DNA of 64,000 nucleotides from positions 1 to 64,000 of IMG/VR virus record IMGVR_UViG_3300033146_000946; one strand, written 5' to 3'. The notes beneath the pieces were generated by a model that ran no database searches, was not told the DNA's origin, and saw only the letters and a list, made by a program, of their open reading frames with translations. The position numbers were made by a program, and so were the translations under genes. This stretch comes from a virus. Below, in pieces: positions 5,674 to 49,291 of this stretch (within the stretch, counting starts at the first letter, position 1; every line of letters begins with the position of its first letter).

Positions 5674-5710
5674 TATTTGACATGTAAATGTCTAATATAA
5701 GGAGATTAAT

Positions 5711-6114: not shown

Positions 6115-6116
6115 TT

Positions 6117-6521: not shown

Positions 6522-6522
6522 A

Positions 6523-8078: not shown

Positions 8079-8080
8079 TT

Positions 8081-8527: not shown

Positions 8528-8534
8528 ATAAATT

Positions 8535-9644: not shown

Positions 9645-9656
9645 TAAGGAGATTTA

Positions 9657-12806: not shown

Positions 12807-12808
12807 TT

Positions 12809-13168
12809 ATGGCACAAGAAAATACTGATAGTAATTATGTTCCAGAAGCAATATTCTTTAATCGAACTATTCGTGATATGCGAAAACATGTAGAATATGA
12901 AAAATTTCTTTGTAGAATGATGGTTGATAATGATGATACTAGAAAATTTAAAGAAAATACAGATAATCATCCTGATAGTATTCATAAATTTATATATAAT
13001 AATGAATTAGTTGAAGCACACACTATGAGAGGAAAATATGAAGCGATAGGAAAATCAGCTTATATTCCTACACCAAAACAAGATGATGAAGATGAACAAG
13101 ATACAACTACTACAGAAGAAAATACATATTCTGTTGATAATGATAATATAGTTTTAAAAGGAAAATAA
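12809..13168 (+). CDS. hypothetical acidic protein (119 aa)
   Basis: The start is ATG 12809, 2 bases after the preceding stop. The first 75 residues look folded (NRTIRDMRKHVEYEKFLCRM); the last 35 are Asp/Glu/Thr/Asn-rich and probably disordered (QDDEDEQDTTTTEEN). It sits between two larger unknown proteins in the head module with coupled starts. The layout suggests a small assembly factor or adaptor for its neighbours. No known family. Confidence 0.6.
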   Translation: MAQENTDSNYVPEAIFFNRTIRDMRKHVEYEKFLCRMMVDNDDTRKFKENTDNHPDSIHKFIYNNELVEAHTMRGKYEAIGKSAYIPTPKQDDEDEQDTTTTEENTYSVDNDNIVLKGK

Positions 13169-17860: not shown

Positions 17861-17861
17861 A

Positions 17862-18965: not shown

Positions 18966-18981
18966 TTAAGGAGAAATGACA

Positions 18982-28268: not shown

Positions 28269-29294
28269 ATGGCTTACAATGATTATTTGAAAAAAAATAC
28301 TAAACAGGCATTAAAAAATATTACTGAAGGTATTGAACGAGAAGGTGTAAGTTATCTTACTGGTTCTGTTAAAGATACCTCTTGGGATAAAAATGAACCT
28401 GATATTAATTTAGCATATAGTTCAGCTGAATCTTCTTATAGTGGTACTGATATTACTGCTGTTATTATTTATAATGAATGGATGGTTATATTAGGAAATG
28501 TAGAAACTATATCTTATTCATTACATCGTGATAAAATGCCAGTTAGAACATTAGGTCGAACATATGCAAAAGATTATGTTAGAGGTCAAAGAACGATTGC
28601 TGGTAGTTTGATTTTTGTTCAATTTGATGAAGCCCCACTTTATAAGTTATATGAATTTTTTAATAAGAAATTAGAAAATCAACATAGATTTAGTTCACCA
28701 GTTGCTGATGAAATTCCACCTTTCGATTTAATGTTAGTATTTAATAATGAATATGGTTACGGTTCAGTTATTAAAATGTATGGTGTTGAAATAGTTGATG
28801 AAGGTGGAACCTTTTCTATTAATGATATATACTCAGAAAATGTAATGCAATTTATTGCTAAAGATATAGATCCTATGGTATCTAATGGAAAAGATGATTC
28901 ATTTAAACGATTACTATTTGAAAAAATGACACAAGGTAAAGTTATTGATGAACATTATGCTTCACTGTTGGAATATAGAAAACGGATAGCTCGCGATTTA
29001 GCATTTTATGAAGGACAAATATCAAGTACGGCTAAGATTGCTAAAAAACGAGATCATAAAACAGATTGGAAACATGGACATAAAAGAAATGATAGAGCTA
29101 AAGAACATAATAATGATATTAAACAAGCTAAAAGTAAATATGAATTATTAACTAATAAAATAGAAAGTTTAATAGACGAATTAGCACGAATTGATAATGC
29201 TATTATGAAATATGAACAAACTAAAATGACTTGGGATATGAATGCTGCTGTAAGTGCAGATTATACTTCAAGTTCTGTATTTACAGATAAATAA
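28269..29294 (+). CDS. tail tube protein paralogue 2 with helical C-terminal extension
   Basis: The product has 341 residues. Residues about 55-210 repeat the tube fold of the preceding protein: GTDITAVIIYNEWMVILGNV, ISYSLHRDKMPVRTLGRTYA, VRGQRTIAGSLIFVQFDEAP, IPPFDLMLVFNNEYGYGSVI, YGVEIVDEGGTFSINDIYSE and VMQFIAKDI. A 130-residue helical, basic, coiled-coil-like extension follows (EYRKRIARDLAFYEGQISST onwards). Such extended tube paralogues often sit at the tube tip or baseplate junction (compare T4 gp54/gp48-type roles). No clear ribosome site is visible, which would agree with lower expression than tube 1. Confidence 0.8.
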   Translation: MAYNDYLKKNTKQALKNITEGIEREGVSYLTGSVKDTSWDKNEPDINLAYSSAESSYSGTDITAVIIYNEWMVILGNVETISYSLHRDKMPVRTLGRTYAKDYVRGQRTIAGSLIFVQFDEAPLYKLYEFFNKKLENQHRFSSPVADEIPPFDLMLVFNNEYGYGSVIKMYGVEIVDEGGTFSINDIYSENVMQFIAKDIDPMVSNGKDDSFKRLLFEKMTQGKVIDEHYASLLEYRKRIARDLAFYEGQISSTAKIAKKRDHKTDWKHGHKRNDRAKEHNNDIKQAKSKYELLTNKIESLIDELARIDNAIMKYEQTKMTWDMNAAVSADYTSSSVFTDK

Positions 29295-32300: not shown

Positions 32301-34382
32301 CTTGGTAAACATATTGATTTATATAATTTTATAATGGAAGATATAAATGATGCAGAATATAATAAAAATATAGATGAACATGTAGATGAAACTTATAAAT
32401 ATGTTAAAAAAATAATTAGAAAAGCTAATTTAAATGATAATGATAAAGACTATTTAAAAGAATCATTAAAAGATATTCATAATACCTCTAATTTAAATAA
32501 TATAACTAAAGCTTATATTATGGGTAACTTATATGATGAGACTATGGATATTTCCCAGAATAATGATTATAATGATCAATTAGAAGAAAATTTAGATAAA
32601 TCGACTAAATATATTAATAAATTTATTAAGAAAAATAATTTAACATTTACACAACAATTAGCTGGATTAAATACATTAGATATTATTAATTCAGATACAT
32701 ATTTAAGTATTGAAGAAAAATTAAATCAACATGGAGTTATATATGATAATCTTTATAATATTGTATCCGAAAATTATTATTCTCAAGGATTATCAGCTAA
32801 TTTAAAAGAATCTACTGAATTTATGACAGAATTTATTAATGATCAAGAATTAAAATTTGATCAATATGATCAAGCATTAGATACATTAAAATCAGTTAAT
32901 TCAACTGAATATTTAACTGATGAAGAAAAATTAGTTCAACATGGTTATTTATATAAATATGTTAGTCAAGAAAATATAGAATATTTAACTGATGAAAGTG
33001 AAAATGAAGATACATATCCAATTGAAATTAAATCTACATTAAAAGATTCTAAAATTGATAATAAGGAAATAGTACAAGATATTATTCGAGAACAAAATGA
33101 TACTGTTCATAATAATATAATTGATAATTCACAAGAACGATTAGAACATTATAAAACTAATATAAATGAATCTTTATCTGATGATGTTAGAGATAAGAAA
33201 ATTATAGAATCAATTAATCAAGATATGAAAACATTAGAAAATACTAGAGATATTTCAACTCCTAATAACGATCTTAATAATCCTATTAAATCTGAAGTTA
33301 GTTCAAAATTAGAAGAAATTAAAACTATTGATTCTAATGCAGCAAATTATCCTTCTGAAGCAACTACTGTAAATTCAACTGAAAGTACAGCATTTAATAA
33401 AACAGAAAAACAAGCATTTGAAAATGCTAATAAAGCTGTAAAACAAAAACAACAATTAATAGAACATGCTGATAAAATAGTAAATGACATAAATGATATA
33501 ACAAATGATAAACCTAAATCTAGAAATAAATCTAATCCTTATGAAATTAATGATTTAGATGAATTAGAAATTGCAACAAAAGCAATTGATGAAAATTCAG
33601 CATATAAATTAAATACAACAGCTGAATATAAAACAGAAGAAAAAAATGCTTCTAATCTTAAAATAATTGATTATGTTGATATGGCAAATGGTGTTGACTC
33701 TGATTCTGGTAGACCTAATACTGAAAATGGTGCAGGTGCTAGTTCAGGTGGTGTTGGTGGTGTAAAACATGATAATACATATAAACATGATAAAACTTTT
33801 AGAGAATTTACAAATGTAGCTCCTACTTCATTTAAGAAAAGTGGAGTATTTTCCAAATATGCTGAAGTAGAATTAGATACAAATGCTAAAAAAGGTGAAA
33901 AATATATTGCAAAAGTAGAAGATAGTGCCGCTCTCAGAATAGCAGTAAAAGCACAAGATGTAAAATATAACTTTGGTGGTAAAGATTTAGAAAATAATAC
34001 TATAGATTGTTCAGGATTTGCTGTATATGTAAATAATCAATTAGCTATGGATCATGGTAAGGAAAGACGACCAATTCTTAAATCACATAATACTAGTGCT
34101 CAAGATTTATATAATTATTCAATAGAAACAAATAAACCTCAACCAGGAGATATGGCATTTTTATATAGTTCTAAACGTGGTAAAATTGGACATGTAGTTG
34201 TTTATATGGGTACAACTAAAGATGGTAAAGCTGTTGTTATGGATGCTAGAGGTGGTGGTAAACATAAAGTTTATACTCAGATATTAGAAGATATGCCTTC
34301 TTGGAGTAAACATTTATCAGGATGGAGAACATTAAAAGGACAAGTTAATAATACTAATATAGATCCAAAAGATTTATTATAA
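29307..34382 (+). CDS. giant tube-fold fusion with 70-residue repeats and NlpC/P60 peptidase
   Basis: Product 1691 residues. Residues about 85-155 carry the first half of the tube fold (QAKVFLGDIWVDDIVTIQYN, QSKEPIYGYASQNYDAVAAG, QIIGQGSMVIAFKEVGYLNV); the second half (VMNILITFGDM ... TLYLLNDIHFTSQ ... EVYEFFFRDI) follows only after an insertion, at about 332-390. Residues about 820-1240 are six helical repeats of exactly 70 residues. Residues about 1555-1680 form an NlpC/P60 cysteine peptidase: C1568 in NTIDCSGFAVYV, H1629 in GKIGHVVVYMG, and D1646 where a third polar residue is expected. It is probably a baseplate-proximal tube paralogue that carries a peptidoglycan-cutting domain for entry. 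The repeats may be a flexible arm. Confidence 0.85.
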   Translation: MSKTKDNVTYRGRNGKTKVGLDSERAKLHYDIRHPYTNSAVDKLKKEIHNALDHQFSVQSRGQLASPHKFDSRYNYETYKYDYYSGSQAKVFLGDIWVDDIVTIQYNIRQSKEPIYGYASQNYDAVAAGQIIGQGSMVIAFKEVGYLNVIKAYLDEQAAGVKLAIANIKNRSAGGDSDVYSTSDYSARVTGSFNPGLIRQSENIETVLDKLKNADLKVETSDSYVKAEYGVKGSTADKDIVAAKRIVTSNDQRKNLNNNVDFNSGHGNKIKDFEDASEVLEDVIWGDNNGKPFGLDQKKDGLLRADEFDYVKSKTGEFNGIKSARGNNYEDVMNILITFGDMSDKRAEHTLYLLNDIHFTSQNVIVSPTGEPIGEVYEFFFRDINKTINTSSININKIKFNVGVEEGFYLSQLEDVYNAINNKQSTVTIKLLTYYDGKKWNKLDVSFDPMLEPLGMPPLTIDPKLGKDKSLNNYVQQAISDYLSFSSDIDKSLNYEKLSLTAEILGINGVAEDGAMDVTGLDLTKTNGINMIAERQGEMGFNFIIVSPGSNPSLILDIIKREDFFTPSAPVLEKSTEGKAKTKQSEGKVHIGNMEGGLGETTRTEPDKVQITRDDSNPGTDEEGKPLTAKEIFETNGEDATYLDQKPNELLVASVIDGDTSNVIEDLHYDPLFNSFTYTTVDDTGAKSVNFVDVNKLDIDTMDTLITNAVDGDFDLSVAELEEVLTQSEEEYEQLKEYNKQHKKVNELIDETDPVIKEEVFDDPIFANSTYEVKEAAAAAVEEYETGNISYRELRHKLNKIGRVDRSQGRADDKIVHESYKDLRSTIRHAELTRQQEKDAIDALKSVTNTKYLNKDEKLSQHKDLYKFVMDDSQENEYNKSIDENVKKTYKYIKKVIRHSELTDFQESQMKNFLNIVEDSTLITNIQKANTLGILYDKIISTSNKNEYNNQIKENLSDSNEYLYNLIEKSDVPDNEKQNVIAAIKSINDTLYLSNEEKLGKHIDLYNFIMEDINDAEYNKNIDEHVDETYKYVKKIIRKANLNDNDKDYLKESLKDIHNTSNLNNITKAYIMGNLYDETMDISQNNDYNDQLEENLDKSTKYINKFIKKNNLTFTQQLAGLNTLDIINSDTYLSIEEKLNQHGVIYDNLYNIVSENYYSQGLSANLKESTEFMTEFINDQELKFDQYDQALDTLKSVNSTEYLTDEEKLVQHGYLYKYVSQENIEYLTDESENEDTYPIEIKSTLKDSKIDNKEIVQDIIREQNDTVHNNIIDNSQERLEHYKTNINESLSDDVRDKKIIESINQDMKTLENTRDISTPNNDLNNPIKSEVSSKLEEIKTIDSNAANYPSEATTVNSTESTAFNKTEKQAFENANKAVKQKQQLIEHADKIVNDINDITNDKPKSRNKSNPYEINDLDELEIATKAIDENSAYKLNTTAEYKTEEKNASNLKIIDYVDMANGVDSDSGRPNTENGAGASSGGVGGVKHDNTYKHDKTFREFTNVAPTSFKKSGVFSKYAEVELDTNAKKGEKYIAKVEDSAALRIAVKAQDVKYNFGGKDLENNTIDCSGFAVYVNNQLAMDHGKERRPILKSHNTSAQDLYNYSIETNKPQPGDMAFLYSSKRGKIGHVVVYMGTTKDGKAVVMDARGGGKHKVYTQILEDMPSWSKHLSGWRTLKGQVNNTNIDPKDLL
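31764..33023 (+). repeat. six in-frame repeats of exactly 210 bases (70 residues)
   Basis: Equivalent positions (the Y/N/T before the YIKKxI-type helix) fall at 31764, 31974, 32184, 32394, 32604 and 32814, all exactly 210 bases apart. Units 1 and 3 resemble each other (YLxxxEKLxxHxDLYxF, EYNKxIDExV), as do 2 and 4 (ITK/IQK-A-xxxGxLYD, YNxQxxENL), so a 140-residue AB unit appears to have been duplicated. Confidence 0.85.
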
Positions 34383-34435: not shown

Positions 34436-34738
34436 ATGGCAGTAACAAAAGAACAAATTGAAAAATGGAAAGCGGAGTTTGGTAAAATTTATAAGATAAC
34501 TCCTGTGTCAGATCTAGAAATAATCTATAAACCTTTATCTAGGAATGATTATATGGATATTATGTCAAAACAAATTGAAGGTTTGATTGAAGATCCTGAA
34601 ATTGAAACTGTTAAATTATGTATCTTAAATGATATAGATGAAAATGATCTTTATTCACGAGGTGGTATTGCTACTGTTGTGTATGAAGATATTATGAAAC
34701 GTTCTGGATTTACAATTGTAGAATCAGAAGAACTATAA
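34436..34738 (+). CDS. putative tail assembly chaperone 1
   Basis: The product has 100 residues; ATG 34436 follows TAGGAGGT. It is acidic and mixed alpha/beta, with ITPVSDLEIIYKPLSRNDYM near the N-terminus, a pattern (a predicted strand, then RPL-x-R-x-E/D-Y) usual in tail assembly chaperones that precede tape-measure genes. The second putative chaperone at 34969 has the parallel segment KEVIYRTLNITEINVINNIS. Many tailed phages make two such products by frameshift; here they are separate genes with a terminator between. Assignment rests on position, size and this weak pattern. Confidence 0.6.
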   Translation: MAVTKEQIEKWKAEFGKIYKITPVSDLEIIYKPLSRNDYMDIMSKQIEGLIEDPEIETVKLCILNDIDENDLYSRGGIATVVYEDIMKRSGFTIVESEEL

Positions 34739-34968: not shown

Positions 34969-35505
34969 ATGAATTTAACAAGACAAACCAAGTTATATAA
35001 ATCTACTTTTGATGATAAAGAAGTAATATATCGAACTTTAAATATAACTGAAATCAATGTTATTAATAATATATCTAATACTTATTATAAATATGATGTA
35101 GCATATGATCTAGCAGTAATTAATAAAGATGATGAAATCAATTATTTAATTAAACAACAAATTGGAAAAGATATTATTGAATCTTCAGCTTTATCTTTAT
35201 CTGACGATATGATATTATCTTTAACTGTTGATGGATTTAGAGAATCAGTTAAAAATGATTTTACTTTAACTCTAATTCCACAAATAATGAATGTATTAAA
35301 TGTTAATTTAGAATATCTACTATCTTTAACAATTGATGATTTAATTGAATTAACTGCTTTATGTGAAATTATGACTAATAAAAAAATATTTAAAGATATA
35401 GATATGCCAAAAGAAGATGTTGCAATTAAAAATGATAATCCACAATTTTTTCCAGAAGATGGAAAATCATTACAAGATAAAATGAAAGAACTAGAAGGTT
35501 TTTAA
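34969..35505 (+). CDS. putative tail assembly chaperone 2
   Basis: The product has 178 residues; ATG 34969 follows TAAGGAG. The N-terminal segment KEVIYRTLNITEINVINNIS is like the IIYKPLSRNDYM region of the preceding protein; the rest is a helical domain (LSDDMILSLTVDGFRESVKN, MNVLNVNLEYLLSLTIDDLI) ending in an acidic tail (DKMKELEGF). It sits directly before the first giant protein, overlapping it by one base, the normal place of the second tail chaperone. It is separated from chaperone 1 by 230 bases of noncoding DNA with a terminator, so programmed frameshifting cannot join them. Confidence 0.6.
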   Translation: MNLTRQTKLYKSTFDDKEVIYRTLNITEINVINNISNTYYKYDVAYDLAVINKDDEINYLIKQQIGKDIIESSALSLSDDMILSLTVDGFRESVKNDFTLTLIPQIMNVLNVNLEYLLSLTIDDLIELTALCEIMTNKKIFKDIDMPKEDVAIKNDNPQFFPEDGKSLQDKMKELEGF

Positions 35506-38500
35506 TGTCACACTATGATCCTTATCAGGATAATAACGATAGCTATTATAATCCGCAAAGTAATGTTAATAATAAAGAAAGTGTAGTTCATTCAATAGGC
35601 AGTGCTATTGGAGAAACTGCTAAATCTTTAGTTGGTCAATTAATTGTTCATACTGTTGTTAAATCTGTTGGAAAATTAGCAGGTCGAGGAATCGCAAATG
35701 CTCAACGTTCAAGAGCTACAATGAGATTAAAGCAGAAGAATTTATCATCTTCTCAAAGATCAATGTATCAACGATTATCAAAAGCGGAAACATTTACAGA
35801 TGTATTATCAGCTAGAAGTAAAACATTCGATAGGGTTAGAACTAACGCATGGCGACAAAAGTCAAAAAATATTTTAGAAAAACGTGAAAATGTTTATAAT
35901 AGATTAAAAACTAGAAATCCAATTGGAGCGGAAGCATATAAAGTTAAATCTGCTTTTAAAAATTCTGATACATTTATGGCTGTAGCTATGCATAATGTAG
36001 GTGAATCTATATTAGAAGGATCCATTATAGGATACGCTTACGATGCAGCTACTGGTCAATTAGGACATATGGGTGTAAGAGACGATCTATCTACTTGGAA
36101 TTTACCAGGACATGCTGTAAACTACGCTAAATATATGGTAAAAAATGCTGTTAACTTTGGAGTAATGGGAAATCTTGGTAATATTAAAAGATTTGGCCAA
36201 GCTGGTGCCGCAAATGTTGGTAAAAATTTCTTGAAACATAATAAAGGTTTTGAAGATGCAGTATTAGGATTTGCATCTAAAGTATCTAATGTTAGATATA
36301 AAGGTGCTATGAAACATGGTAGTGATACTGATTATAAAGCACAAGCATTTCAACATGAAATAAATGATAGTTTATTAAAGAAAGTAAAAGATAATGTTGG
36401 CGCAGCACTATCTACTTATACCGATACTATTGCTCCTATGATGCATGAATCATTACATAAACCATTTCAACGCAAACCTACAAAAACACCACAACCAACT
36501 GCTACTCAAAGTGCTGTCAAATTTCAAGATAAAGTTAAACATGGATTGGATCAAGTAAAAAATAGTTTTGAACATAAACGTAATGAGCGAGCAAATAGAT
36601 TATCAAAAGATGTAGATAAAGGTGGATTTGCTATTGCTGATGTTTTATCAGATATGGGTGCAAGATCTAATAATCAATCTGTATTAACTCAACATGGTAA
36701 TTCTAAACAAGCTATAGATGAAATGTTAATGAACCAAAAATCTAGTAGAGGATTTTTAGCTCAAATGTTTGGATTACAACAAACATCTTTAAAAGATACT
36801 TTAACAAAAGATAAAATAGCTGATATAGCTCATGGTATATCTAAATTTACTGATACAAAAGAAGAAATGTTAATTAGACAACTTGGTAATGTTAAAGTTG
36901 GAAATACATTTTTTAAAAAAGGTAAATTTAATGTAGATATGAATTATATGAATCCTCTAAATGTAGTAAAAAGAGGAATGGCTAATATACTTCAATCTAA
37001 TGCTAAAATGTTATATAAATTACCAATGGTTGGAAAATCATTATCATTGGGTGCTATTACTATGTCTGATACTATTCTTGGTACAGAATATAACGCTTTT
37101 TCTTTTAATAATACTGGTACTGGATTTGGATTTGTAGTAGGAACTAAAGGTGGTCCTAAACAAATAGATGATTTATTACGTGAACCTGGTATTTTAAAAC
37201 AAGGATCTAATACTAGTGGCGTTAATGTACATATGGTTAATGATAAATTATATGCTATAGATGGTGCAACTATTACTAAATTAGATTCATATAATGTAGC
37301 AATTAAAGAAACGAGTCCTGCATCTAAATCATTAAGTGAAATGAAAAAGCATGATATGGAAGAATATTTATATCAGAATGCTAAAAACACAGTACCAACA
37401 TCAAAAAGCGAAGCTATAGCAGCTTATGCTAATAATATTAAAAAACAACGAGATGGTTTAGGGTTTTTTGGAAAATTATCAGCTGCTGTATCATGGGATA
37501 AATTAAGTTCTAGTAATGCTATGCAAGGTTTAAAAGAAATCTTTAATATGAAGATTATGCCTAATGGACAAGTACATAGTGTAAAACAACAATTATATGA
37601 CCAAATGGTTGGATCATTTTATGGTAAAGATCCTATATTTAATAAACAAGAAATGATGTCTGTTGGTCGAACAATGTTAGAATCTACTGAACATCATTTA
37701 GCTAATGTTATAAATAGACCACATGTAATAAAACAATTAGCAGAACGTTCAAGTGGATTTATGAATAAAAATAATCTTGGATGGATGTGGGATGATACTG
37801 AATTTGTTCAATTATTACGAGAAGGACGAGCACCTAATGGTGTTATTGATAAAGATTTTTATAAAACATTTTTATCTGATGATGAATCTAAAGCATTATA
37901 TCATACAGTAATACAAAATCCTCGTCGAGCTAAAAAACATATAACACGAGATAGAGTTGGAGCTAGACCAGATTTAGATGCACTTACACAATTACGTACT
38001 AAATTTGCTATGAATGGTTTAGGTAAAGTCGAAGGTGTTGATAGAATGTTAAGTGGTGCAGATTTCTTACATAGACAAGGATTAATAAGTCATTCAGAAG
38101 CAACTGCTATGAAACTTCATGGTAAATTAAATACTATGTTTGCAAAATCTAAAACCTATTTTGGTGAATTAGATCCTGAAATAGTGGATTTAACAGAAAT
38201 GCAAAAATTGTTTAAAGGTAAAAAAGATGGTGTAATAATAAAACAAAATGAATTATTAGATTATGTTATGCAAGATGAAATGCGTAAACCATCTTTAGTT
38301 TATTCAAAAGCAAGATTAGCAGATACGTTATATAGAAATCCAGATGCACCTATGTTTGGATTAGCTCGCGATACAACTCAAGCGATAGGTATATCCTATA
38401 AAAGTGATTCTGATAAGAATATGGCTATGGGTTTAAAAGTATTAAATGTAGGAGCAAATAGAGTATCACATCTAGTATCTGATACATTTAATGCTGTTGG

Positions 38501-41500
38501 TATTGGTGGATTTGAATATGATAATTTCAGATATGGTACTGGTATGTCTGGTTCATTTAAATATCTTGCTAATACAGCTGGTAAAGTAGCAGCAGCAGCT
38601 TTTGCATATAAAGCTATTGATGCTGCAGTTGCATCAGCTCCAGTATTTGATCAAACTGGATTACAAGATGGTATAACAGGATTTTTAGCTGATAATGTAG
38701 CAACTACACATTTAATAGCATCTAAAGCATTAAATTTTACAGGTGTTGCAGGAGCAGGAAGGTATCTTGAAGGGTTAATGCCAGGATTTACATCATCTGC
38801 ACCAGGAGCATTGATTGGTGGTGCTCTTAGAATGGCTGGTGGACCAGGAGCTATGATTGGTGGTGCAATACATGGTGCTATTTGGAATCGAATGTTATCA
38901 GCATATATGCCAGATTTTACTAAAACATATGAACAATTACAAAAAGAATATTCAGGTGAAGAAGAAGTAGCTATTGTAGAAGGTAAAGGATGGTTATTAG
39001 GTACTACACCATTCCAAGGTAATAAAATAGTTGGTTATAAACCAAATTGGTATGTTGAAGCAAAATCAAGATGGAAAGCATCAGATACATTATATGGTTC
39101 TGAATTTAGAAAATTAATACATGAACCATTACCTGGAATAGGTGCTAATATTGGTGATATAATAGATCCATATTATATGGAACGAAAACATTTCTTCGAT
39201 AGGCCATATCCTGTTACTGGAGGATTTTTAGATGAAGTTCCAGTATTTGGTCCATTAATAGATGCTACGTTAGGAAAAATATTTAAACCTAAAAAATTAA
39301 TGCATCAGAAATTTTTAAATGGTGATTCATCAATTGAACATTCTGAAGTTACAGCTATGCCAGTTATACCAATGTCAGAACAATCAGTACATATGCGTAG
39401 TGCTTCACCAATGAAAACAACTAGTCGACATATTAGATCTAATTTTATGGGAGCATGGGTTTATCCAGGTGATCATGCTTCATCAGCACAAATGATAGCT
39501 GATGATTATATGGCAGGATTTGAAAATATGATGGGTTTAGTTGGTTTTGCTGGTGGTGTTGGTAGAACTAATTTAGTAGAACATGAACGTGTAGTTCCAA
39601 CATTAGAAACTGCTGGTAGAATGGCATCTATGACTAGAAGTTATAATGATATGGCATTGGGAGGAATAGGTACTTTATCTGAAGCAATGAGACGTTTTGT
39701 AGGTAAACCAGACCATAGAAAAGTCGGTGTTAATCCAATTCCAAATATGCTTCCAAACTTTCTACCAGGTAGATTTTTAACTGGTGATCCATATGAAAAA
39801 ATAATGAAAGGTGAATTAAGATTACCTGGTACTGCTTATGAAAGAACACATGATATTAATTATGCTATGCCAGGTCGTGCTTCAATGTTCGGTGGTAATT
39901 TAAAAGATATCGTTGCATATTTTACTGGACATAAATCACCATTATTAAAAGAAGAACATGATATATTGGAATATGGTACACATGCTCACGAAGCTATTCA
40001 AAATTGGCTTAAAGCTGAAAATATATTAATATCTGCTGAAAATTTAGTATATGATACAAGAAATAATGTGTCTGGTCATATTGATGGTGTAATTCGAGAT
40101 GGTACAGGTGGTGGTGGTAGAAGAGCTCTTGAAATAAAAACTATATCAGCTAAAGGTTTAAAGAAATTATCAGGACCAAAAAATCAACACGTTGGACAGT
40201 TAAATTTTTATCTTCATGAAATGAAGATGAAAAAAGGTACAATATTATATGTTAATAGAGATAATCCAGCTGAGTTTAAAGTATATGAAATTAATTATAA
40301 TCGAGATAGATATACAAAAGATTTACAAAAAATACATCAAGCTAGAAAAATAGCGTCTGGTATGATAGCACAATCTAAAACGGGTATATCTAAAGGTTTT
40401 AGTTATTCTTGGACAGATAGATTAAATATATTAGCTGACGTTGCGCCAGCATCAAAAGAATTCAAAGAAGCAAAGTGGATAGTTGAACAACAGATAAAAA
40501 ATGGAATGATGGATGAACGTGGAATGAACAAATATAGAAAAGCGTTAAAACATCGACAAGCTACTTTGAGAACTTATGAATTATATCCTACTAGATTTAG
40601 AGGACAAATATTATCACCTGATGCTGAATATAATAGACAAAATGAAAATTATAATATAAAAGCAGGAGCAGAATATAGTTTACCAGAAAGAATAGTTGGA
40701 GCAGTTTGGGAAGAATTTTTAAATACAAATACATTTTTAACTAATAAGTTTTTTGCATTTAAAGATCCATTAGAACATTATTCAGAATATCAAGTATACG
40801 GAAAAGAATATACACCATGGACTGATCCTTATGGTTCATTTGTAAAACCAAGAATAGATAGAGTATTAGGATCAACTGATCCTTTTAAAGGAGCAATAGC
40901 AGGTTCTATTGATGGAGCATATTTATTTGGTGGTAGTCCAATGGCAGCAGTTGGAGCATTTGTAGGTGCTGCTGTTGGTGGTGTTAATGGAATCATGAAA
41001 AGACAACAAAGATGGCTACCTGGAAATATTAAAACTGAAAGACAAATTAATGATTATTTTGATACGTTAGAATATTATAAAAATGAAAGAATGGCAACTT
41101 TGAGTTATGGTATGGAATATGATAGATATAAAAATGCAGCTAATGCTACATTCCATAGTTTAATACAAAATGAAAGTACGGATTATACTAATATATATAG
41201 ATCAGCTTATACGTCAGAAAAACCATATCTATCTGCCTGGTTAAATGAAACTAATCCTGAACGACAAGAAGAAATTTTAAAAATTGTTCCTGAACGATTA
41301 GGAAATGTGTTAGTTAGTCATTGGCAAAAAGAAGGATCAAAAGTTAATACTGAAGATCATATTGATAAAATGTCAGCAGGTTTATTACAAAAACATAATC
41401 CAGAATATGATATGAGAATGTTAGATCCAATGTTACGAACAGAAGATATTAAATTAAAAGCTATTAATAATGCTGGATTAAATGCTCATGATTTTGGATT

Positions 41501-41786
41501 AGGTTGGGCTCCACAATTATTAAGAGCACAAGATGCGATGGATAGAATGCCAGATCCAAATATTAATCAAATTAATTTTAATGAAAATAATGCAGATATG
41601 ATGGATCCAGGTACAGTAAAAGGAGCAATAATGAATATGTTACATTCGATGGGATTAAAAGGTAGAGTTACAGTATTTATAAATAATCATGTAGATGGTG
41701 GATCAAATAAAGCAACTATAACATTACAGCATAATAGAGTGCAAGAAATTCGTGATGCTGTTGATTTTAGAGAGAGGTATATGTAA
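35505..41786 (+). CDS. giant tape-measure-like protein with embedded PD-(D/E)XK nuclease
   Basis: The product has 2093 residues. Position straight after the chaperones, an amphipathic N-terminus (residues 25-60) and Gly/Ala-rich membrane-like segments at about 1098-1130 (GALIGGALRMAGGPGAMIGG) and 1795-1830 suggest a tape-measure or ejected protein. At about 1480-1600 lies a RecB/Cas4-like nuclease signature: H1493/H1495 in YGTHAHEAIQNWL, D1527 in SGHIDGVIRD, E1543-x-K1545 in ALEIKTI and Q1565xxxY1569 in QLNFYLHEM. The order and the 16-residue D to ExK spacing fit the family. The rest has no recognised domain. The enzyme could act on host or phage DNA during entry, or on packaged DNA. The next giant gene overlaps by one base. 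Confidence 0.75.
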   Translation: MSHYDPYQDNNDSYYNPQSNVNNKESVVHSIGSAIGETAKSLVGQLIVHTVVKSVGKLAGRGIANAQRSRATMRLKQKNLSSSQRSMYQRLSKAETFTDVLSARSKTFDRVRTNAWRQKSKNILEKRENVYNRLKTRNPIGAEAYKVKSAFKNSDTFMAVAMHNVGESILEGSIIGYAYDAATGQLGHMGVRDDLSTWNLPGHAVNYAKYMVKNAVNFGVMGNLGNIKRFGQAGAANVGKNFLKHNKGFEDAVLGFASKVSNVRYKGAMKHGSDTDYKAQAFQHEINDSLLKKVKDNVGAALSTYTDTIAPMMHESLHKPFQRKPTKTPQPTATQSAVKFQDKVKHGLDQVKNSFEHKRNERANRLSKDVDKGGFAIADVLSDMGARSNNQSVLTQHGNSKQAIDEMLMNQKSSRGFLAQMFGLQQTSLKDTLTKDKIADIAHGISKFTDTKEEMLIRQLGNVKVGNTFFKKGKFNVDMNYMNPLNVVKRGMANILQSNAKMLYKLPMVGKSLSLGAITMSDTILGTEYNAFSFNNTGTGFGFVVGTKGGPKQIDDLLREPGILKQGSNTSGVNVHMVNDKLYAIDGATITKLDSYNVAIKETSPASKSLSEMKKHDMEEYLYQNAKNTVPTSKSEAIAAYANNIKKQRDGLGFFGKLSAAVSWDKLSSSNAMQGLKEIFNMKIMPNGQVHSVKQQLYDQMVGSFYGKDPIFNKQEMMSVGRTMLESTEHHLANVINRPHVIKQLAERSSGFMNKNNLGWMWDDTEFVQLLREGRAPNGVIDKDFYKTFLSDDESKALYHTVIQNPRRAKKHITRDRVGARPDLDALTQLRTKFAMNGLGKVEGVDRMLSGADFLHRQGLISHSEATAMKLHGKLNTMFAKSKTYFGELDPEIVDLTEMQKLFKGKKDGVIIKQNELLDYVMQDEMRKPSLVYSKARLADTLYRNPDAPMFGLARDTTQAIGISYKSDSDKNMAMGLKVLNVGANRVSHLVSDTFNAVGIGGFEYDNFRYGTGMSGSFKYLANTAGKVAAAAFAYKAIDAAVASAPVFDQTGLQDGITGFLADNVATTHLIASKALNFTGVAGAGRYLEGLMPGFTSSAPGALIGGALRMAGGPGAMIGGAIHGAIWNRMLSAYMPDFTKTYEQLQKEYSGEEEVAIVEGKGWLLGTTPFQGNKIVGYKPNWYVEAKSRWKASDTLYGSEFRKLIHEPLPGIGANIGDIIDPYYMERKHFFDRPYPVTGGFLDEVPVFGPLIDATLGKIFKPKKLMHQKFLNGDSSIEHSEVTAMPVIPMSEQSVHMRSASPMKTTSRHIRSNFMGAWVYPGDHASSAQMIADDYMAGFENMMGLVGFAGGVGRTNLVEHERVVPTLETAGRMASMTRSYNDMALGGIGTLSEAMRRFVGKPDHRKVGVNPIPNMLPNFLPGRFLTGDPYEKIMKGELRLPGTAYERTHDINYAMPGRASMFGGNLKDIVAYFTGHKSPLLKEEHDILEYGTHAHEAIQNWLKAENILISAENLVYDTRNNVSGHIDGVIRDGTGGGGRRALEIKTISAKGLKKLSGPKNQHVGQLNFYLHEMKMKKGTILYVNRDNPAEFKVYEINYNRDRYTKDLQKIHQARKIASGMIAQSKTGISKGFSYSWTDRLNILADVAPASKEFKEAKWIVEQQIKNGMMDERGMNKYRKALKHRQATLRTYELYPTRFRGQILSPDAEYNRQNENYNIKAGAEYSLPERIVGAVWEEFLNTNTFLTNKFFAFKDPLEHYSEYQVYGKEYTPWTDPYGSFVKPRIDRVLGSTDPFKGAIAGSIDGAYLFGGSPMAAVGAFVGAAVGGVNGIMKRQQRWLPGNIKTERQINDYFDTLEYYKNERMATLSYGMEYDRYKNAANATFHSLIQNESTDYTNIYRSAYTSEKPYLSAWLNETNPERQEEILKIVPERLGNVLVSHWQKEGSKVNTEDHIDKMSAGLLQKHNPEYDMRMLDPMLRTEDIKLKAINNAGLNAHDFGLGWAPQLLRAQDAMDRMPDPNINQINFNENNADMMDPGTVKGAIMNMLHSMGLKGRVTVFINNHVDGGSNKATITLQHNRVQEIRDAVDFRERYM

Positions 41787-44700
41787 TGCCAATAACTGAA
41801 ATTTTAGGTGAAGAAATTGAAAATGATAATGATAGAGTAAACTGGTTTGGTAGAGTAATGGTTGGTGGTATGTCTGTTTTAGGACTTGTTGCTATTGCTA
41901 ATAAGATTGGTGGTCCTACAGGTAAAGCTATAAAATTATCAGTTGGTGATCAATTAGAAGAAGAAGTAATAGATGCTGTTAATAAATATGGAAGACAAGC
42001 TGATAAATTAAAATCACCAAGTAGTTTAAAACATAAATTACCAATTAATGGAAAATTAGAAGTAGTTGGAAAATTACCATCAGAACAAGCAATTTCTAAA
42101 TTTGAACGTGTAGTAAATTCTCAAGATAAAATAAACAAAATGATGGAGACACCAACATCATTATATAATAAAATACATGAACTTGAGCGTTCTATTTCTA
42201 CTGTTATTAATGGTGTTGAAAATGGTGATCCTATGATGAAACAGATTAACGCATTACATGGAATAGTTTCAGCTAAAGTTAGGACAAAAGATGCTAAATC
42301 TGATGCTAATAATTATTTATTAATGGCAACCAAAATAAATGCAATGAGAGATTATAGTACTACTGATGTTAAAGGTGAATTAGCACAATATTTAGATGAA
42401 GATATCTGGTATGATAATTTCTTAACTGAAATGAAACCATCTGATATGATTAAATGGAATCAAAATAATGAAACTTTAATAAAAAGTGATACATCATATG
42501 CTAAAAAATATTATAAACAATTACAAAATTTAGAAAAAGAAATTTTAGCTAATAAAATTGCTAGTTCTGCTAATAGTAATAAAGCATTAGAGCTAACACA
42601 TAATAAATTATATGTAAAAGATGCTTTTATGCCTGTTGGTGATTTATTAAATGATGCAGCAGGTTATGTAATAAATGTTACTAATAAATCTATCGAATTA
42701 TTTTCATCTGATTTTAGTAATAATAAAATGAGTGTTGGAGAAATAAAACAAGTAATCGATAAATCTATATCTAAAAACGTTGGATTAAAATCACAATACG
42801 GATCAGAATTAAGTGATATAGCTCATTTATTAGATCAATTTAAAACTATGAGTAATGGTAAAATTACTAATGTTAAAATGACTTATAAAACCACAGAACA
42901 AAGAGGTGTTGAAAAAGCATATGTTGTAATTAATATAGATAGAAAATATGGAAATAATAATACTAGATCATTTTCTATGAATATACCATTAGTTGATAAA
43001 TTTAATATTGTACCAGATATAACTAATACATCACATTTTGGATATGGTGTTGCAGGTATAATAGAATCATTACCAGGAACAAATAAACCAGCTACAGCAA
43101 TAGATATATCTACTTATTATATGAGAACTGTTAAAGATATGTTAACTCAATCTATAATGAGTGAGGTATTATTTACTGATGAAGAATCATTTAATGATGT
43201 ACAAAAAAAATTAAGAAGACCATTATTAGCAATTCAAGATCAATTAAGTGCATTAAATGGTGAAGCTAGAGATATTTTTGCTACAGGAATGTATATACCA
43301 AAAACGCATTTAGATTTAATTGCTGATAAAACAGGTAGTAAAAAAAGACAATTAGCTGATGGTGCTAAAACAATAATAAATATGTTTAATGATAGTAAAA
43401 GAAATACTAATAATGATGTATCTATTGTTTTAGACTTAGAAACAATTCAATTATTAGGAAATGGTTCAGGAAGATATATGTCTGTAAGAAATACTACTTC
43501 AATTTGGTCTGTAGGTTTTTCTATTTTTAAAGGTAATGAATTAATAGATGGTGATCAGATTTCTTCTATGCATGCTTTAAAAGAGCATGATTTATTACGA
43601 GCATATGAAGTTGATAAAGTTGATAAAGGATATATAGCTAGGATGATTGATGAAAATCCTAATATCCGTAAATTTGCTAGATTTGCACAGAAAACAGTTG
43701 GCGGTTCAACTGGTGATGATTCAGTAAGTTTAGCTATAGCATTAAAAAAACATATAGAAATGGTACTAGATGAATCAAACGGATCATTATCTAAAGTAAC
43801 AACAATGCCAGGTATGGGAAATTTTTCAAGTTCAGTTGAATTTGCTCAATCTTTTGTTAAAATGTTGAAAGCTAAAATACGAGATTTACAAGATACTTTA
43901 CAACCAGGAGCAAAGATCACACTTGAAACTGCAAATGGTACTGATTTCGATATAAGATTATTAGAAACATTAACTGGTGATATGGGTTCTATAAGAGATA
44001 TGGTTGAATTTAAAGATATAACTAATGTAAGTAGAACTATGAAATTTGGTAAAAAAGGTATGTTAGGTGATCAGTTAATGCATATCGTTAACCAGTTAGC
44101 ATGGGATCAAGGATATGATAAAGAACATTTTAATGTAGAAGCTAATCCATTAGAAGCATTAAAACAATTACAAAAGAATGGATTAATGAAAACTAATAAA
44201 AATGGTGGTGATATATTAAAATTTGTTGGCGGTAAAATAAAAGGTAATATGGGTTTACATAATTCAGCATTATTAGATACTGTAATGACAAAAGCTGCAG
44301 TTATATTAGCTGAGAATGTAATTGCTAAAGATACTAGTCATGTAGATAAAGCATATGAAATTTTAAATTTATTAGAAAAATATCAAAGAAAAGATTATGA
44401 AGCAACTATTGCTGATTATATGGAATCATCTTTAGGAGTAATAAATGGTAAACAAGTAACTAAATCTGGTATTAGTATGCAACATCGTGTTGATAATTAT
44501 TATACACATTTTAACGTAGCTGATGTTATGCCATTATTAGCAAATAATCCAGTATCTAAACAAGCAAATCAATATTTAAGACATGGTTGGTTTCAAAAAA
44601 ATGTTAAAGCTGCATATTGGCGATATGGAAAAATGATTACATCTCCAATAGAAGAAGTAGCTACAGATTTAGCATATAGAACTACAGGATTTGATAAAAA

Positions 44701-47700
44701 TAGATTTGCTAATAAAGTTATATTAAATACAGCATATACAATTGGTGGATATGGTATGCAATCTGGATATAGTGCTATACCTAAATTTATAGATGATGAA
44801 TTTGATCAAATGTTATATAATCAAAAACGAGTTCAATTTAATTTTGCTGATACTGATTTTCCAGATGCATCTATGTCTAATACTATTAGAGAAGTATATG
44901 ATAAAGCTATGGTTAGAGCTCGTAAAATGATGAGTGATAAAGGATTAGGTCCAGTTAAAAGTAAGCATAAAATATCCAAAAGTGTATTAGAAGAAGCATT
45001 TAGAATAGAATTAGGAAATATACAAAATAAAGAATCTTTGATATTAGATCCAGAAAACCCAATACATCAAAATATTATGTTTGGTGATGGTAAATTAAAT
45101 ATTAAACAAAATACTCCAGGAAAATTAGTAGGTATTGAATTAGGTGGTGATATTAATAATGATAAACCAGCTTCAATGTTATTATTATTTGATTATAAAT
45201 CTTCTTTAAATTTACAGATAGATCATTTACCAGATAATAAATCAGTTGTTACTAAATTACAACATGTAGATCAAGAAGTACTTAGAACTATGGGTAGAAA
45301 ATATACACATGGATTAATTGAATCACAAGTAGATATGCGTACAATAGAAAAAGGATATACTGGAGAATTACAAAGAAAAGCATTATTAAAAATAATAGGA
45401 CATGTTAATAAAATAGGTCATATTGGGTCATCAGATGCATCTAAGAGAGTATGGACTGATTCAGAAAAATTTGCATCTGATAAAATAATGAAAAAAGTAA
45501 TATCATTGTTTAAAGAAAAAGCTGCAACAGATGGTATGCATGTTGGATCTATTGATGAAGAAAATGGTTTTAAATCATTTATATTTGGTGCATTAAAACC
45601 AGGAACAGTAGATGTTAAAGAACAAATGAATATGTTATCTACTATTAAAATGTCGGATATTATGGATATATTTGGTGAAGCAGGTGGTGATCTCATACAT
45701 GATTATAAAAGTTTAAAAGAATATTATGGTTTATTTAGTAATGATGGTATAATTGAAACTGCTCATAATATCGATTCAAAATTAGTAGCTAAAGGCTTTT
45801 CAGAAAAAGGTACAAAAGAAGGAGATTTATTAGAACAAATGTTAAATATGGATGATACTATAAAAGAAAATAAAGCATTAATAAATCCATTTCAAGCAGC
45901 TGCTAATAAATATAATAGAAAGCATGGTGATAGTGCATTACAAAAAAAATTACAAGGATACATTGATGCTAATGATTTACAATCTGCTGATAATTTAATT
46001 AAGAAATTAAAAATTGGAAAATTATTTCAAGCAGTAGGTGATATGAGTGCAGTTAATAGAAATATTATGGCTGGTAAAACTGGAGATGAAAGGTTTGATA
46101 AATTAATGGGTATTGTTGTTCCTACTATTCATCACTTTAGTGATTCTCAATCTATGAAACAAAAACAAGTTAATAAAACTATTAAATTTCGAGCTAATTA
46201 TTTTGATACAATTTTTCATGAAAATTATTTACCAGAAAGAGTAAAACAAGTATTAGCATCAAGTCAAGGTTGGAAAGCTGACAAAGCAGGTTTAGATTTA
46301 GTTAAAACATCTCGTGCAGTTATAGACATGTTTAAAAATAATAATCTTAGTAAATTAATGACTAATTATAGTTTAAATCAACAACAAATGTTAGATATCA
46401 TTGGTAATCCACTAACTAATAAACAAATAGATAGAGCATTAGAAAGATTAAGTTTAGCTGATGGTAAAAGTTCAAAGAGAAAAGCTGCTATAATTAGTGA
46501 AGTAATAGATAGTATTAAAAAAACAGGAACAACTATATCATTAGAAGAAGAAGAAGAAATAAGATCTAGAAGTATTAATTATTTTAAAGATAAATTGATT
46601 GCAACTAAAAACAGACCTTCTTCTTTATCAGCTACCGAAGCATTACATGTAATATCTTTAAGTGAAGATCAAAATGCTAAAGTAGTTGGTTTAAAATTTT
46701 ATGAATATAAAGAACTTGATAAAGATACAGGAAAATTAGTATCTAAAGTTATATCAAAAGAAACTAGAGCTAAATTAATTAAAAAAGGTATTAGTAAAGA
46801 TCAATTCAAATCATGGGGTGGACAAATTAGATTTGATTTAGAAGATATGATATCTAGATTGAATGAAAAAGAATCTGATCCATTTAATCTACGTCAATTT
46901 ATTGATCATTTTTCACATCTTAAAAATACACCTGGTCGTGCTGATAATAGAATCTTTAATGTCAAAGAAGTTAATGGTAGAAAAATAATTGAAATGAACG
47001 CATTAGTTATGCCAATGTTTAGTGATATTAGAAATGTATTCAATCAAATTGGTGATGTTGAAGGTTATGGTGTTGCTACAAAAGAATTTAAATTAATGCA
47101 AGAAGTCGCTAATGGTTTAAAAGATTATGCTAATTCCTTTATTGATGGTAAAGGTAATAATTCTATGAATAATAGAACTGGTGACGACTTAGCTTTTAAC
47201 TATTTCCAAATGTTAGGTGGAATTATGAATTTTGGAAAAGATTCACAATTATTTGATGCTGTTAAAAAATTCCATTTAGTAGGTAGTAGACATACATATG
47301 GTGTAAGTGATCAACATGTATTATTAGCACAATATACCTTAAAAGGAATAGATGGTAAAAGTACTGGTTCAAAACAAAGAATGTTAGATTTTTTCAAAAA
47401 AAATAATATGGATGCTTCACAACAAAGTGCATTTATGGATCAGATAAGAAGTGTAGCTTTATCTGATGGACATACAGCATTAGTAAATGCTGAAGATTTT
47501 TTTGGTGATAATATAAAAGTAAATACAGGTAATGGTAAAAGTATGACTTTTGGTCAAATGTTATCTGATGCAAAAGCTAATGATAAACATTTATATAATG
47601 AATTATTAAAAATTCAAAATGGTAGAGCAACTATGCCAGGTTTCACTGGTAGATATCCTATCCCATCAGCTGGAGAACTTGGATTATCTATGGTTAATAT

Positions 47701-49291
47701 TTTAGGTCTTAGTAGAGAAGTGATGGATTTTTTAGGTATGAGTACTGATATGACATATTTTAATTCTGTTATAGCTGAAGCTCGTAAAGCTGATACTGAT
47801 GGTGATGAAACTGAGTTAATGCAATTAGGATATAGAACAATCGAACATTTAAATGAAATGAGAGCAGCAACAAAAGAATCACATGCTAGAACTGTAGGTA
47901 GTCATGGACTTCAATATCTTATTAATGAATATAATAGAAGTGGTGCATTAATAGGTAAGGAAATGAAAGGTGGTGTAGAATATTATAAAGTTGGTAAATT
48001 AGCACCTAATGGTTCAATGATTGAAGAATTAGTTACAAAAGATGAATATTTTAATAAATTTGATTCAGGTATATCTAAAAATTTTAAAAAAATTCTTAGT
48101 CAAGACTGGATAGAAGGAACTAATATACATAATATAGCAAATGGTGTAGAACGTCATTTAGCAACAGGTGAAATTGGTACAGCTGCTCAATCATTAATTG
48201 GTTTAATTTCTAATACGATGAGTGAAAGAGTAAAAGATTTACATCGTTTAAATAAAATACTTCCTGATAATGTTCCAACTGATATAAACTTTTTGGATTC
48301 AATTCAATCAATAAAATTTGGTATGGCTAATATGCATCAAACTGCAATTGCTATGGGTAAACATAATACGTTTGAAAAAGCAATAAATTTAGCACATGCT
48401 ATTGGTTTCTGGGAATCAAAAGTTAATAATAAACAAGCTTCACGAGAACAAGTTCAAGCAGCTGAAAAAGCATGGATGCATAATTTTTATGATGATTGGG
48501 ATACAAAAAAATTAAATCCATATTGGGAAAAAAATGACGAAACAAGAGCATTTGTTCAAAAACAACAAGACTTATTTAATACTTTTAAAACTGCTATGCC
48601 ATTTATAGATCAAGTTTATAAAAAAGATCCACAAATAGGAAGATACTTAAAAAATGAAAGCGATTTATCTAGTGGTAAAATGGGAACAGATATTACTGCT
48701 GCATTATGGAATGAATCTATGGATCATGGTATTTATGATGATGCTATATCTCATATTAATTCATCAACTCGAGAAGCAACAGCAGAATTAATTCAACATG
48801 TAATAGATAAACAAAGTGGTGATTTTAAATATGATAATGGACCTACAAAACGAAGTAAAGCTTTTAATCATTTTTATACTAATAATAATATACATGTTAA
48901 AAATGCAATGATGCATGGTGGTAAATTTGCAGCTTTTGGTATGTTAGCAGTTGCAGCATTAAATATGTTTAAACCTATGGCTGGTACTGGAATTGATGCA
49001 CCAGGTGTACATAATAATTTTACTGCTAGTGAATTACAATTAGATAGAAGAATAGCTATAGATCAAGTTGATGCATCTTTTAGTAAAGAAGCATTTGCTT
49101 ATATGAATGATCAAGATTCAACTGCTAGAGAAAAAAAATCATTATATGGTGCTACACAATTAGCAATATATGATAATTTAATTAGACCAGAACCTACTCA
49201 TAAACAATTTAGAAGTAATCTTAATATACAACAGATAAATAGAATGACTTATATTGGTCCATTTGGTAATTCTAATTTTGATAGTAGGTAA
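41786..49291 (+). CDS. giant virion protein with DnaQ-like exonuclease and RNA-polymerase-like DxDGD signatures
   Basis: The product has 2501 residues. Region 545-835 matches DnaQ-like DEDDh 3'-5' exonucleases: ExoI D550-L-E552 in SIVLDLETIQLL with SIWSVGFSIFKG after it, ExoII D722 in TANGTDFDIRLLETL, ExoIII H825/D831 in LHNSALLDTV. The H-D spacing is 6 rather than 5 and the gaps between motifs are larger than usual. At about 1955-2010, GRYPIPSAGELG is followed by ADTDGDETEL with D2003, D2005 and D2007, the RxP ... DxDGD layout of the catalytic double-psi barrel in cellular-type and crAss-like virion RNA polymerases. A Gly/Ala-rich hydrophobic segment lies near residues 2380-2400. It is probably packaged and injected. 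Both enzyme calls rest on short motifs. Confidence 0.65.
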   Translation: MPITEILGEEIENDNDRVNWFGRVMVGGMSVLGLVAIANKIGGPTGKAIKLSVGDQLEEEVIDAVNKYGRQADKLKSPSSLKHKLPINGKLEVVGKLPSEQAISKFERVVNSQDKINKMMETPTSLYNKIHELERSISTVINGVENGDPMMKQINALHGIVSAKVRTKDAKSDANNYLLMATKINAMRDYSTTDVKGELAQYLDEDIWYDNFLTEMKPSDMIKWNQNNETLIKSDTSYAKKYYKQLQNLEKEILANKIASSANSNKALELTHNKLYVKDAFMPVGDLLNDAAGYVINVTNKSIELFSSDFSNNKMSVGEIKQVIDKSISKNVGLKSQYGSELSDIAHLLDQFKTMSNGKITNVKMTYKTTEQRGVEKAYVVINIDRKYGNNNTRSFSMNIPLVDKFNIVPDITNTSHFGYGVAGIIESLPGTNKPATAIDISTYYMRTVKDMLTQSIMSEVLFTDEESFNDVQKKLRRPLLAIQDQLSALNGEARDIFATGMYIPKTHLDLIADKTGSKKRQLADGAKTIINMFNDSKRNTNNDVSIVLDLETIQLLGNGSGRYMSVRNTTSIWSVGFSIFKGNELIDGDQISSMHALKEHDLLRAYEVDKVDKGYIARMIDENPNIRKFARFAQKTVGGSTGDDSVSLAIALKKHIEMVLDESNGSLSKVTTMPGMGNFSSSVEFAQSFVKMLKAKIRDLQDTLQPGAKITLETANGTDFDIRLLETLTGDMGSIRDMVEFKDITNVSRTMKFGKKGMLGDQLMHIVNQLAWDQGYDKEHFNVEANPLEALKQLQKNGLMKTNKNGGDILKFVGGKIKGNMGLHNSALLDTVMTKAAVILAENVIAKDTSHVDKAYEILNLLEKYQRKDYEATIADYMESSLGVINGKQVTKSGISMQHRVDNYYTHFNVADVMPLLANNPVSKQANQYLRHGWFQKNVKAAYWRYGKMITSPIEEVATDLAYRTTGFDKNRFANKVILNTAYTIGGYGMQSGYSAIPKFIDDEFDQMLYNQKRVQFNFADTDFPDASMSNTIREVYDKAMVRARKMMSDKGLGPVKSKHKISKSVLEEAFRIELGNIQNKESLILDPENPIHQNIMFGDGKLNIKQNTPGKLVGIELGGDINNDKPASMLLLFDYKSSLNLQIDHLPDNKSVVTKLQHVDQEVLRTMGRKYTHGLIESQVDMRTIEKGYTGELQRKALLKIIGHVNKIGHIGSSDASKRVWTDSEKFASDKIMKKVISLFKEKAATDGMHVGSIDEENGFKSFIFGALKPGTVDVKEQMNMLSTIKMSDIMDIFGEAGGDLIHDYKSLKEYYGLFSNDGIIETAHNIDSKLVAKGFSEKGTKEGDLLEQMLNMDDTIKENKALINPFQAAANKYNRKHGDSALQKKLQGYIDANDLQSADNLIKKLKIGKLFQAVGDMSAVNRNIMAGKTGDERFDKLMGIVVPTIHHFSDSQSMKQKQVNKTIKFRANYFDTIFHENYLPERVKQVLASSQGWKADKAGLDLVKTSRAVIDMFKNNNLSKLMTNYSLNQQQMLDIIGNPLTNKQIDRALERLSLADGKSSKRKAAIISEVIDSIKKTGTTISLEEEEEIRSRSINYFKDKLIATKNRPSSLSATEALHVISLSEDQNAKVVGLKFYEYKELDKDTGKLVSKVISKETRAKLIKKGISKDQFKSWGGQIRFDLEDMISRLNEKESDPFNLRQFIDHFSHLKNTPGRADNRIFNVKEVNGRKIIEMNALVMPMFSDIRNVFNQIGDVEGYGVATKEFKLMQEVANGLKDYANSFIDGKGNNSMNNRTGDDLAFNYFQMLGGIMNFGKDSQLFDAVKKFHLVGSRHTYGVSDQHVLLAQYTLKGIDGKSTGSKQRMLDFFKKNNMDASQQSAFMDQIRSVALSDGHTALVNAEDFFGDNIKVNTGNGKSMTFGQMLSDAKANDKHLYNELLKIQNGRATMPGFTGRYPIPSAGELGLSMVNILGLSREVMDFLGMSTDMTYFNSVIAEARKADTDGDETELMQLGYRTIEHLNEMRAATKESHARTVGSHGLQYLINEYNRSGALIGKEMKGGVEYYKVGKLAPNGSMIEELVTKDEYFNKFDSGISKNFKKILSQDWIEGTNIHNIANGVERHLATGEIGTAAQSLIGLISNTMSERVKDLHRLNKILPDNVPTDINFLDSIQSIKFGMANMHQTAIAMGKHNTFEKAINLAHAIGFWESKVNNKQASREQVQAAEKAWMHNFYDDWDTKKLNPYWEKNDETRAFVQKQQDLFNTFKTAMPFIDQVYKKDPQIGRYLKNESDLSSGKMGTDITAALWNESMDHGIYDDAISHINSSTREATAELIQHVIDKQSGDFKYDNGPTKRSKAFNHFYTNNNIHVKNAMMHGGKFAAFGMLAVAALNMFKPMAGTGIDAPGVHNNFTASELQLDRRIAIDQVDASFSKEAFAYMNDQDSTAREKKSLYGATQLAIYDNLIRPEPTHKQFRSNLNIQQINRMTYIGPFGNSNFDSR

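Follow-up and report, generated by a model that had tools for sequence, protein, structure and literature searches.

We propose, with a probability of roughly 70%, that the second of two overlapping giant genes in this phage, P0002 (2501 aa), encodes a single-chain, two-barrel RNA polymerase (RNAP) placed behind a DEDD exonuclease, and that the first, P0001 (2093 aa), encodes its co-translated partner in the tail lumen or pore; both proteins would be delivered through the tail, with P0002 transcribing early. The window, by which we mean the whole stretch of DNA analysed, is 64,000 nt long and covers positions 1-64000 of a virus record 147,061 bp in length. Its GC content is 21-32%, and the plus strand holds nearly all of its genes, including every feature for which window coordinates are given here.

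Terminase, portal and major capsid genes, recognised in a PHROG search, surround the giant pair. A tail sheath protein (24583-27459; E = 1.9e-45) and a baseplate wedge match near the pair (E = 1.3e-30) were also found, and the tail is therefore contractile. Ahead of P0001 are a 100-aa ORF (34436-34738; compare ME3 gp033), with a weak PHROG match to unknown families, and a 178-aa ORF (34969-35505; compare ME3 gp034) that shares one base with P0001; these two ORFs are assigned as tail chaperones from their position only. Behind P0002 is P0003 (49518-57197; 2559 aa), a giant hub protein homologous to ME3 gp037, which is annotated as similar to the hub of phage 0305phi8-36. Among 50,697 phage records, P0001 and P0003 match only those of ME3 (Acinetobacter), MTATph1 (Moorella) and KLEB27-3 (Bacillus), in the same order, and the annotation of ME3 is itself based on homology to Bacillus phage 0305phi8-36. 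Homology to a gp145-type protein and to the hub, with gene order kept, places the phage in the 0305phi8-36/ME3 myovirus lineage. Eighty further contigs of this lineage, carrying the conserved P0001 block, were retrieved; scans of genome contigs gave no locus in the first scan and five in the second.

The initial annotation had described two giant ORFs sharing one base, and this arrangement is confirmed: P0001 (35505-41786) overlaps its neighbours by one base at both ends, and its stop codon meets the start of P0002 (41786-49291) in a TAATG joint at 41784-41788. A purine-rich sequence, GAGAGAGG, lies directly upstream of the P0002 start. The one-base overlap makes it likely that translation of the two genes is coupled, as had been suggested. 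In phage 0305phi8-36, a two-gene tail chaperone (orfs 143/144) is followed by orf145, by orf146, which was assigned as the tape measure mainly by its length, and by orf147, an overgrown T4 gp27-like hub (PMC2147016). The same order of split chaperones, gp145-type protein, slot protein and giant hub is seen in gp145/gp146/gp147 of 0305phi8-36, in gp035/gp036/gp037 of ME3, where the pair has the same one-base overlap, and here: P0001 is homologous to ME3 gp035 and corresponds by synteny to 0305phi8-36 gp145, making it a candidate tape measure or pore protein, and P0002 stands in the position of gp146. As a unit, the pair lies between the tail chaperones and the hub and baseplate genes, and synteny with ME3 and with orf145/orf146 supports its assignment to the tape-measure slot, as the earlier reading of the DNA had it. 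That reading had also proposed a search for relatives in which both giants occur together; 78 loci have a large ORF behind their P0001 homologue, and at 37 of them the overlap is exactly one base (some loci are near-identical contigs). A separate, clear tape-measure gene would have spoken against this placement; none was seen among the other ORFs in the 147-kb record, although P0004 (1691 aa), encoded upstream, stays an alternative candidate for that function.

Iterated profile searches define a core of P0001 that is conserved in about 80 loci, with a variable N-terminal half. The core is in two parts, residues ~1030-1460 (38592-39884) and 1632-2090 (40398-41774), between which a Cas4-like PD-(D/E)XK nuclease is inserted at residues 1483-1618 (39951-40358; PHROG E = 1.5e-17). 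Its catalytic set is intact (H1495, D1527, E1543-x-K1545 and Q1565), two of the five members of the nuclease family match PDDEXK_1, and the family as a whole matches the Cas4-like structure 4ic1 (E = 2.7e-4). The insert is present in relatives with a P0002-type protein and in L024 and L030, is N-terminal instead in L060, and is missing in most relatives. By this distribution the nuclease is an exchangeable insertion, and because most relatives lack it, the combination of nuclease and polymerase is not a conserved theme. The conserved theme is an exonuclease-polymerase giant adjoining the P0001 core.

The pair had been credited with three nucleic-acid enzyme signatures, the polymerase signature being in the 2501-aa protein, and both statements hold: in addition to the P0001 nuclease, P0002 carries a DEDD exonuclease and a DxDGD motif. 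Five homologues of P0002 from other contigs align over its full length with 16.5-29% identity, and the resulting six-sequence family agrees at no more than 79 of the 2501 columns. These invariant columns include D550, E552, D722, H825 and D831 of a DnaQ-like exonuclease at residues ~546-835 (43421-44290), which has the DxE, the second D after N and the H(x4-5)D expected of a DEDD enzyme; RNase_H_2 matches two of the six members (best E = 1.7e-4). They also include R1956, P1958, D2003, D2005 and D2007 of an RNAP beta'-type barrel motif at residues ~1940-2020 (47603-47845), in which R1956-x-P1958 precedes D2003-x-D2005-G-D2007 and DxDxD is thus combined with an upstream RxP. In a protein of this size the full DxDGD is expected 0.06 times by chance, and a bare DxDxD about 0.9 times. 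Behind the active site, an IGxxxN ... Q ... K motif (residues 2138-2192; 48197-48361) is invariant in the P0002 family and has a counterpart, at similar spacing, in a second family of slot proteins. No phage relative was found by tblastn with P0002, and P0002 itself gave no direct match to RNAP or exonuclease families among Pfam and PDB profiles. Similarly, PDB profile searches found nothing with the P0002 exonuclease profile alone and no relevant match with whole-length alignments of either the P0002 family or the second family; matches came from sub-domain alignments only. Profile comparison did not find a first barrel in P0002, nor was a second, beta-type barrel located, and an AlphaFold2 model of residues 1300-2440 from five sequences reached a pLDDT of only 37. 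We discount two further matches as probable coincidences: one of P0002 to DNA_ligase_A_N (E = 0.2), and one of a 222-aa ORF at 86294-86962 of the record to RNA_pol_Rpb1_2 (E = 0.011), the latter ending before the DxDGD part.

The second slot family comprises KLEB27-3 gp34, which is the equivalent of P0002, proteins from Oceanobacillus profundus (L101), Paenibacillus TCA20 (L099) and an Acholeplasmataceae MAG (L097), and those of contigs L029, L049, L103 and L104. In its members, a DEDD exonuclease close to the N-terminus is followed by K1319 and K/R1326 (L101 numbering), a RYPxxH-like stretch and then ADxDGD; the two basic residues are spaced as the lysines of a beta barrel are, and mark a candidate second barrel. 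RNA_pol_Rpb1_2 matches three of six members (best E = 1.7e-4), and RNAP largest subunits from plants, phage AR9, phiKZ and a large DNA virus are among the best, albeit weak, PDB profile matches (E = 0.07-1.1). For the exonuclease, RNase_H_2 scores above the Pfam cut-off and PolB exonucleases match with E = 4.8e-4. A whole-length profile-profile comparison of the P0002 family with this family recovers both enzyme regions collinearly, the polymerase region with the best score (E = 3.8e-5) and the exonuclease with the next (E = 0.0022), and after the active site both families keep G-x3-N and a Q ... K pair. The overall quality of a model built for L101 residues 1050-2150 is low (pLDDT 51). In this model, residues 535-685, which immediately precede the second barrel, match the N-terminal part of beta'/RPB1 (best Z = 8.8), and RNAP largest subunits, that of phage AR9 among them, fill the top 20 rows; since a Z near 8 can be background for difficult models, we regard this fold match as supporting, not decisive. 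The model also suggests a clamp-like part. Foldseek matches of the L101 model were not significant, and non-significant tape-measure-like matches of the weak model in a fold search of a viral library were taken as long-helix noise.

Singleton slot proteins often contain DxDxD, and in several of them R/HxP precedes it; examples are ME3 gp036, where the motif reads DHDQD, and those of L009, L011, L028 and L060. The slot proteins of MTATph1 and L080 carry DEDD motifs. Directly after the MTATph1 slot gene there is an istA/istB-like insertion, which appears to interrupt the gene. The largest slot family (A11), with about 45 loci, has an invariant GGFDLDDK, and profile comparisons gave no RNAP or other meaningful match for it. 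On the Oceanobacillus element and on L103, the contig that encodes the slot RNAP also encodes a YonO-like RNAP elsewhere, an arrangement consistent with a division between virion and non-virion enzymes; no match to a YonO-like RNAP was found in the 147,061-bp record, which may be incomplete.

How P0002 is read depends on whether its motifs mark real enzymes and on whether those enzymes travel in the virion. It is very improbable that P0002 is just a large, divergent tail protein, devoid of enzyme domains, in which DxDGD and DxE arose by chance: P0002 taken alone has no library match and a bare DxDxD would be expected about once, but the full motif is far rarer, its residues are invariant and accompanied by the upstream RxP, and the family aligns collinearly with one that itself matches RNAP and DEDD families. 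P0002 might instead be a tape measure in which polymerase-like and exonuclease-like segments are inactive and kept for structural reasons. Its gp146-like position and the altered motifs of several slot families, such as GGFDLDDK, would fit, yet the catalytic residues belong to the small set of positions that the P0002 and Oceanobacillus families have kept while nearly all others diverged, and we regard such a structural relic as improbable.

If the enzymes are real, P0002 could still be an ordinary two-barrel transcriptase that acts outside the virion and sits in the tail operon by chance. There is a precedent in orf99 of 0305phi8-36, a separate RNAP encoded in the non-structural arm (PMC2147016). 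We nevertheless think this unlikely given that P0002 has the chaperone-slot ORFs before it and the hub behind it and overlaps the P0001 gene, that the equivalent gene of 0305phi8-36 was assigned as a virion tape measure, and that KLEB27-3 gp34 was deposited as a 'structural protein'; moreover, because two phages with a slot RNAP have a separate YonO-like RNAP as well, the slot enzyme is left with a different role. Alternatively, the pair might serve mainly as cargo for host takeover or counter-defence, its nucleases degrading host or competitor nucleic acid and the polymerase being secondary. Exchangeability of the PD-(D/E)XK insert is what would be expected of accessory cargo. We consider this reading, too, to have little probability, since the polymerase site is common to distant slot families and the nuclease is not, and since exonuclease and polymerase recur together.

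We therefore favour a virion RNAP in the tape-measure slot. Because the genes occupy a tape-measure position like that of 0305phi8-36, both giants are probably built into the tail, and because the slot giants contain nuclease, exonuclease and RNAP signatures, this phage and the many relatives with such a pair probably inject their own transcription enzyme with the DNA; the slot RNAP is probably a virion RNAP ejected at infection. P0001 and P0002 would be made together, placed in the tail or the head-tail channel, and enter the cell before the DNA or together with it. The P0002 polymerase would then transcribe the first phage genes during genome entry, while the nucleases of the pair may process host or incoming nucleic acid and the exonuclease may trim transcripts or template ends. 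P0001 would act as the tail-lumen or pore protein and, in this subgroup, also as the carrier of the PD-(D/E)XK nuclease. Much more tentatively, ejection of a giant RNAP from the tape-measure slot might be general in 0305phi8-36-like contractile phages, including those with the GGFDLDDK family, with the DEDD exonuclease aiding the polymerase by trimming or proofreading transcripts or templates; the two would belong to a transcription-processing complex, delivered by the tail, that has no counterpart among the virion RNAPs described.

The closest known arrangement is gp96 of the Thermus siphophage P23-45, a fusion of the tape measure with a virion RNAP, which transcribes pre-early genes and has been proposed to act at the pore during DNA entry (PMC10770324). 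DxDGD and the tape-measure slot are common to both systems, and so, on our reading, is a single-chain, two-barrel RNAP; the second P23-45 RNAP, gp64, is comparable to the YonO-like RNAP of some relatives here. However, gp96 is one 5002-aa chain with an N-terminal RNAP that has no clamp, whereas in the contractile phage studied here the RNAP site (residues 1956-2007) follows a DEDD exonuclease and falls within the final quarter of the 2501-aa P0002, a chain separate from P0001. In crAss-like phages, the virion RNAP (phi14:2 gp66; phi-crAss001 gp47/49/50) is a giant two-barrel enzyme, and its ejection has been proposed to occur partly unfolded (PMC10172136, PMC10770324). Those phages are podoviruses; as proposed here for P0002, they have giant proteins holding a two-barrel RNAP, which in crAss-like phages is carried in the virion. 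We detected no sequence relation between our giants and the crAss-like RNAP. To our knowledge, the crAss-like enzymes have neither a fused DEDD exonuclease nor a PD-(D/E)XK partner. AR9 and phiKZ package a two-barrel RNAP in contractile-tailed virions (PMC7598289, PMC7824862), and AR9 beta' is among the matches reported above, but their enzymes consist of several separate subunits encoded outside the tape-measure slot, as opposed to the single chain with an exonuclease proposed here.

The initial annotation had called the combination undescribed in a contractile phage. This part of the claim stands, in that we found no literature report that the lineage carries an RNAP in this slot, although the supplementary survey of PMC10770324 could include some of these proteins; the novelty is narrowed by the tape-measure-fused virion RNAP of a siphophage. 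The RNAPs listed in PMC7824862 are those of phiKZ-like jumbo phages only, plus YonO-like enzymes in 0305phi8-36 and c-st, and gp146 of 0305phi8-36, which we compared by its description, has been described as a tape measure only, the reported RNAP being the orf99 product, from the other arm. One siphophage group has been reported to have a virion RNAP in its tape-measure slot. If our reading is correct, the same association exists in a distant contractile lineage, with a fused exonuclease and a nuclease-bearing partner, which would suggest that passage through the tail, formation of a pore and the first transcription became coupled on more than one occasion, or that their coupling is ancient and widely distributed. 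KLEB27-3, ME3 and the phage-like elements of the Oceanobacillus and Paenibacillus strains offer cultured systems in which the exit of large enzymes through a contractile tail could be studied.

Hydrophobic segments do not separate the two giants as had been supposed. Membrane-like segments had been attributed to the 2093-aa protein, and a division into a 2093-aa channel and a 2501-aa cargo had been raised, but the most hydrophobic stretch of both giants is residues 20-38 of P0002 (41843-41899; hydropathy 1.65). Because P0002 has the stronger hydrophobic segments, near both of its ends, a clean split between channel and cargo is unsupported. The C-terminal segment (residues 2376-2394; 48911-48967) recurs in slot proteins of other families, and in a profile comparison this region of the P0002 family matches the second family with E = 0.002.

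The window encodes a 1691 aa protein between the tube and the chaperones (P0004; positions 29307-34382), with an NlpC/P60 domain at its C-terminus (E = 5.5e-8) and repeats of ~70 residues at ~890-1170; this protein is an alternative candidate for the tape-measure or baseplate-lysin role. Two similar-looking tube-like proteins are encoded by adjacent genes at 27520-28197 and 28269-29294. For the first of them, the PHROG match (E = 7.7e-40) carries the label major head protein, which is probably wrong, since its gene comes after the sheath.

Two contigs with a candidate two-barrel RNA polymerase encoded in the slot after the P0001 homologue (L103 and L101, the latter from Oceanobacillus profundus) also carry YonO-like (PF05183) RNAP genes with open frames of ~1180 aa (L111 and L112, respectively). 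In the window's own record, a 222 aa ORF adjoining the primase-helicase (L107; record positions 86294-86962) weakly matches RNA_pol_Rpb1_2 (E = 0.011), probably by chance.

The largest family of slot proteins (L012-L084), which occupies the P0002 position, has an invariant GGFDLDDK followed by RQP, and matches nothing in Pfam or PDB. Its gene is in two pieces at many loci, with the break near the GGFDLDDK/RQP site. In L066 and L073 (~5000-19000), the P0001 and slot genes are both broken into several ORFs, and the sequence between the pieces possibly represents introns or homing elements. The slot gene of MTATph1, a sequenced Moorella phage, appears to be interrupted by an istA/istB-like insertion (L002 27386-29640).

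The 3771 aa P0001 homologue of L008 (6698-18013) contains four insertions, each of ~360-450 aa, that have intein-like (Cys) starts and LAGLIDADG-like stretches, with HNS/HNT at the ends of three; by these sequence features, up to four inteins may reside in a single tail protein. The L007 homologue has one such insertion, as compared to four in L008.
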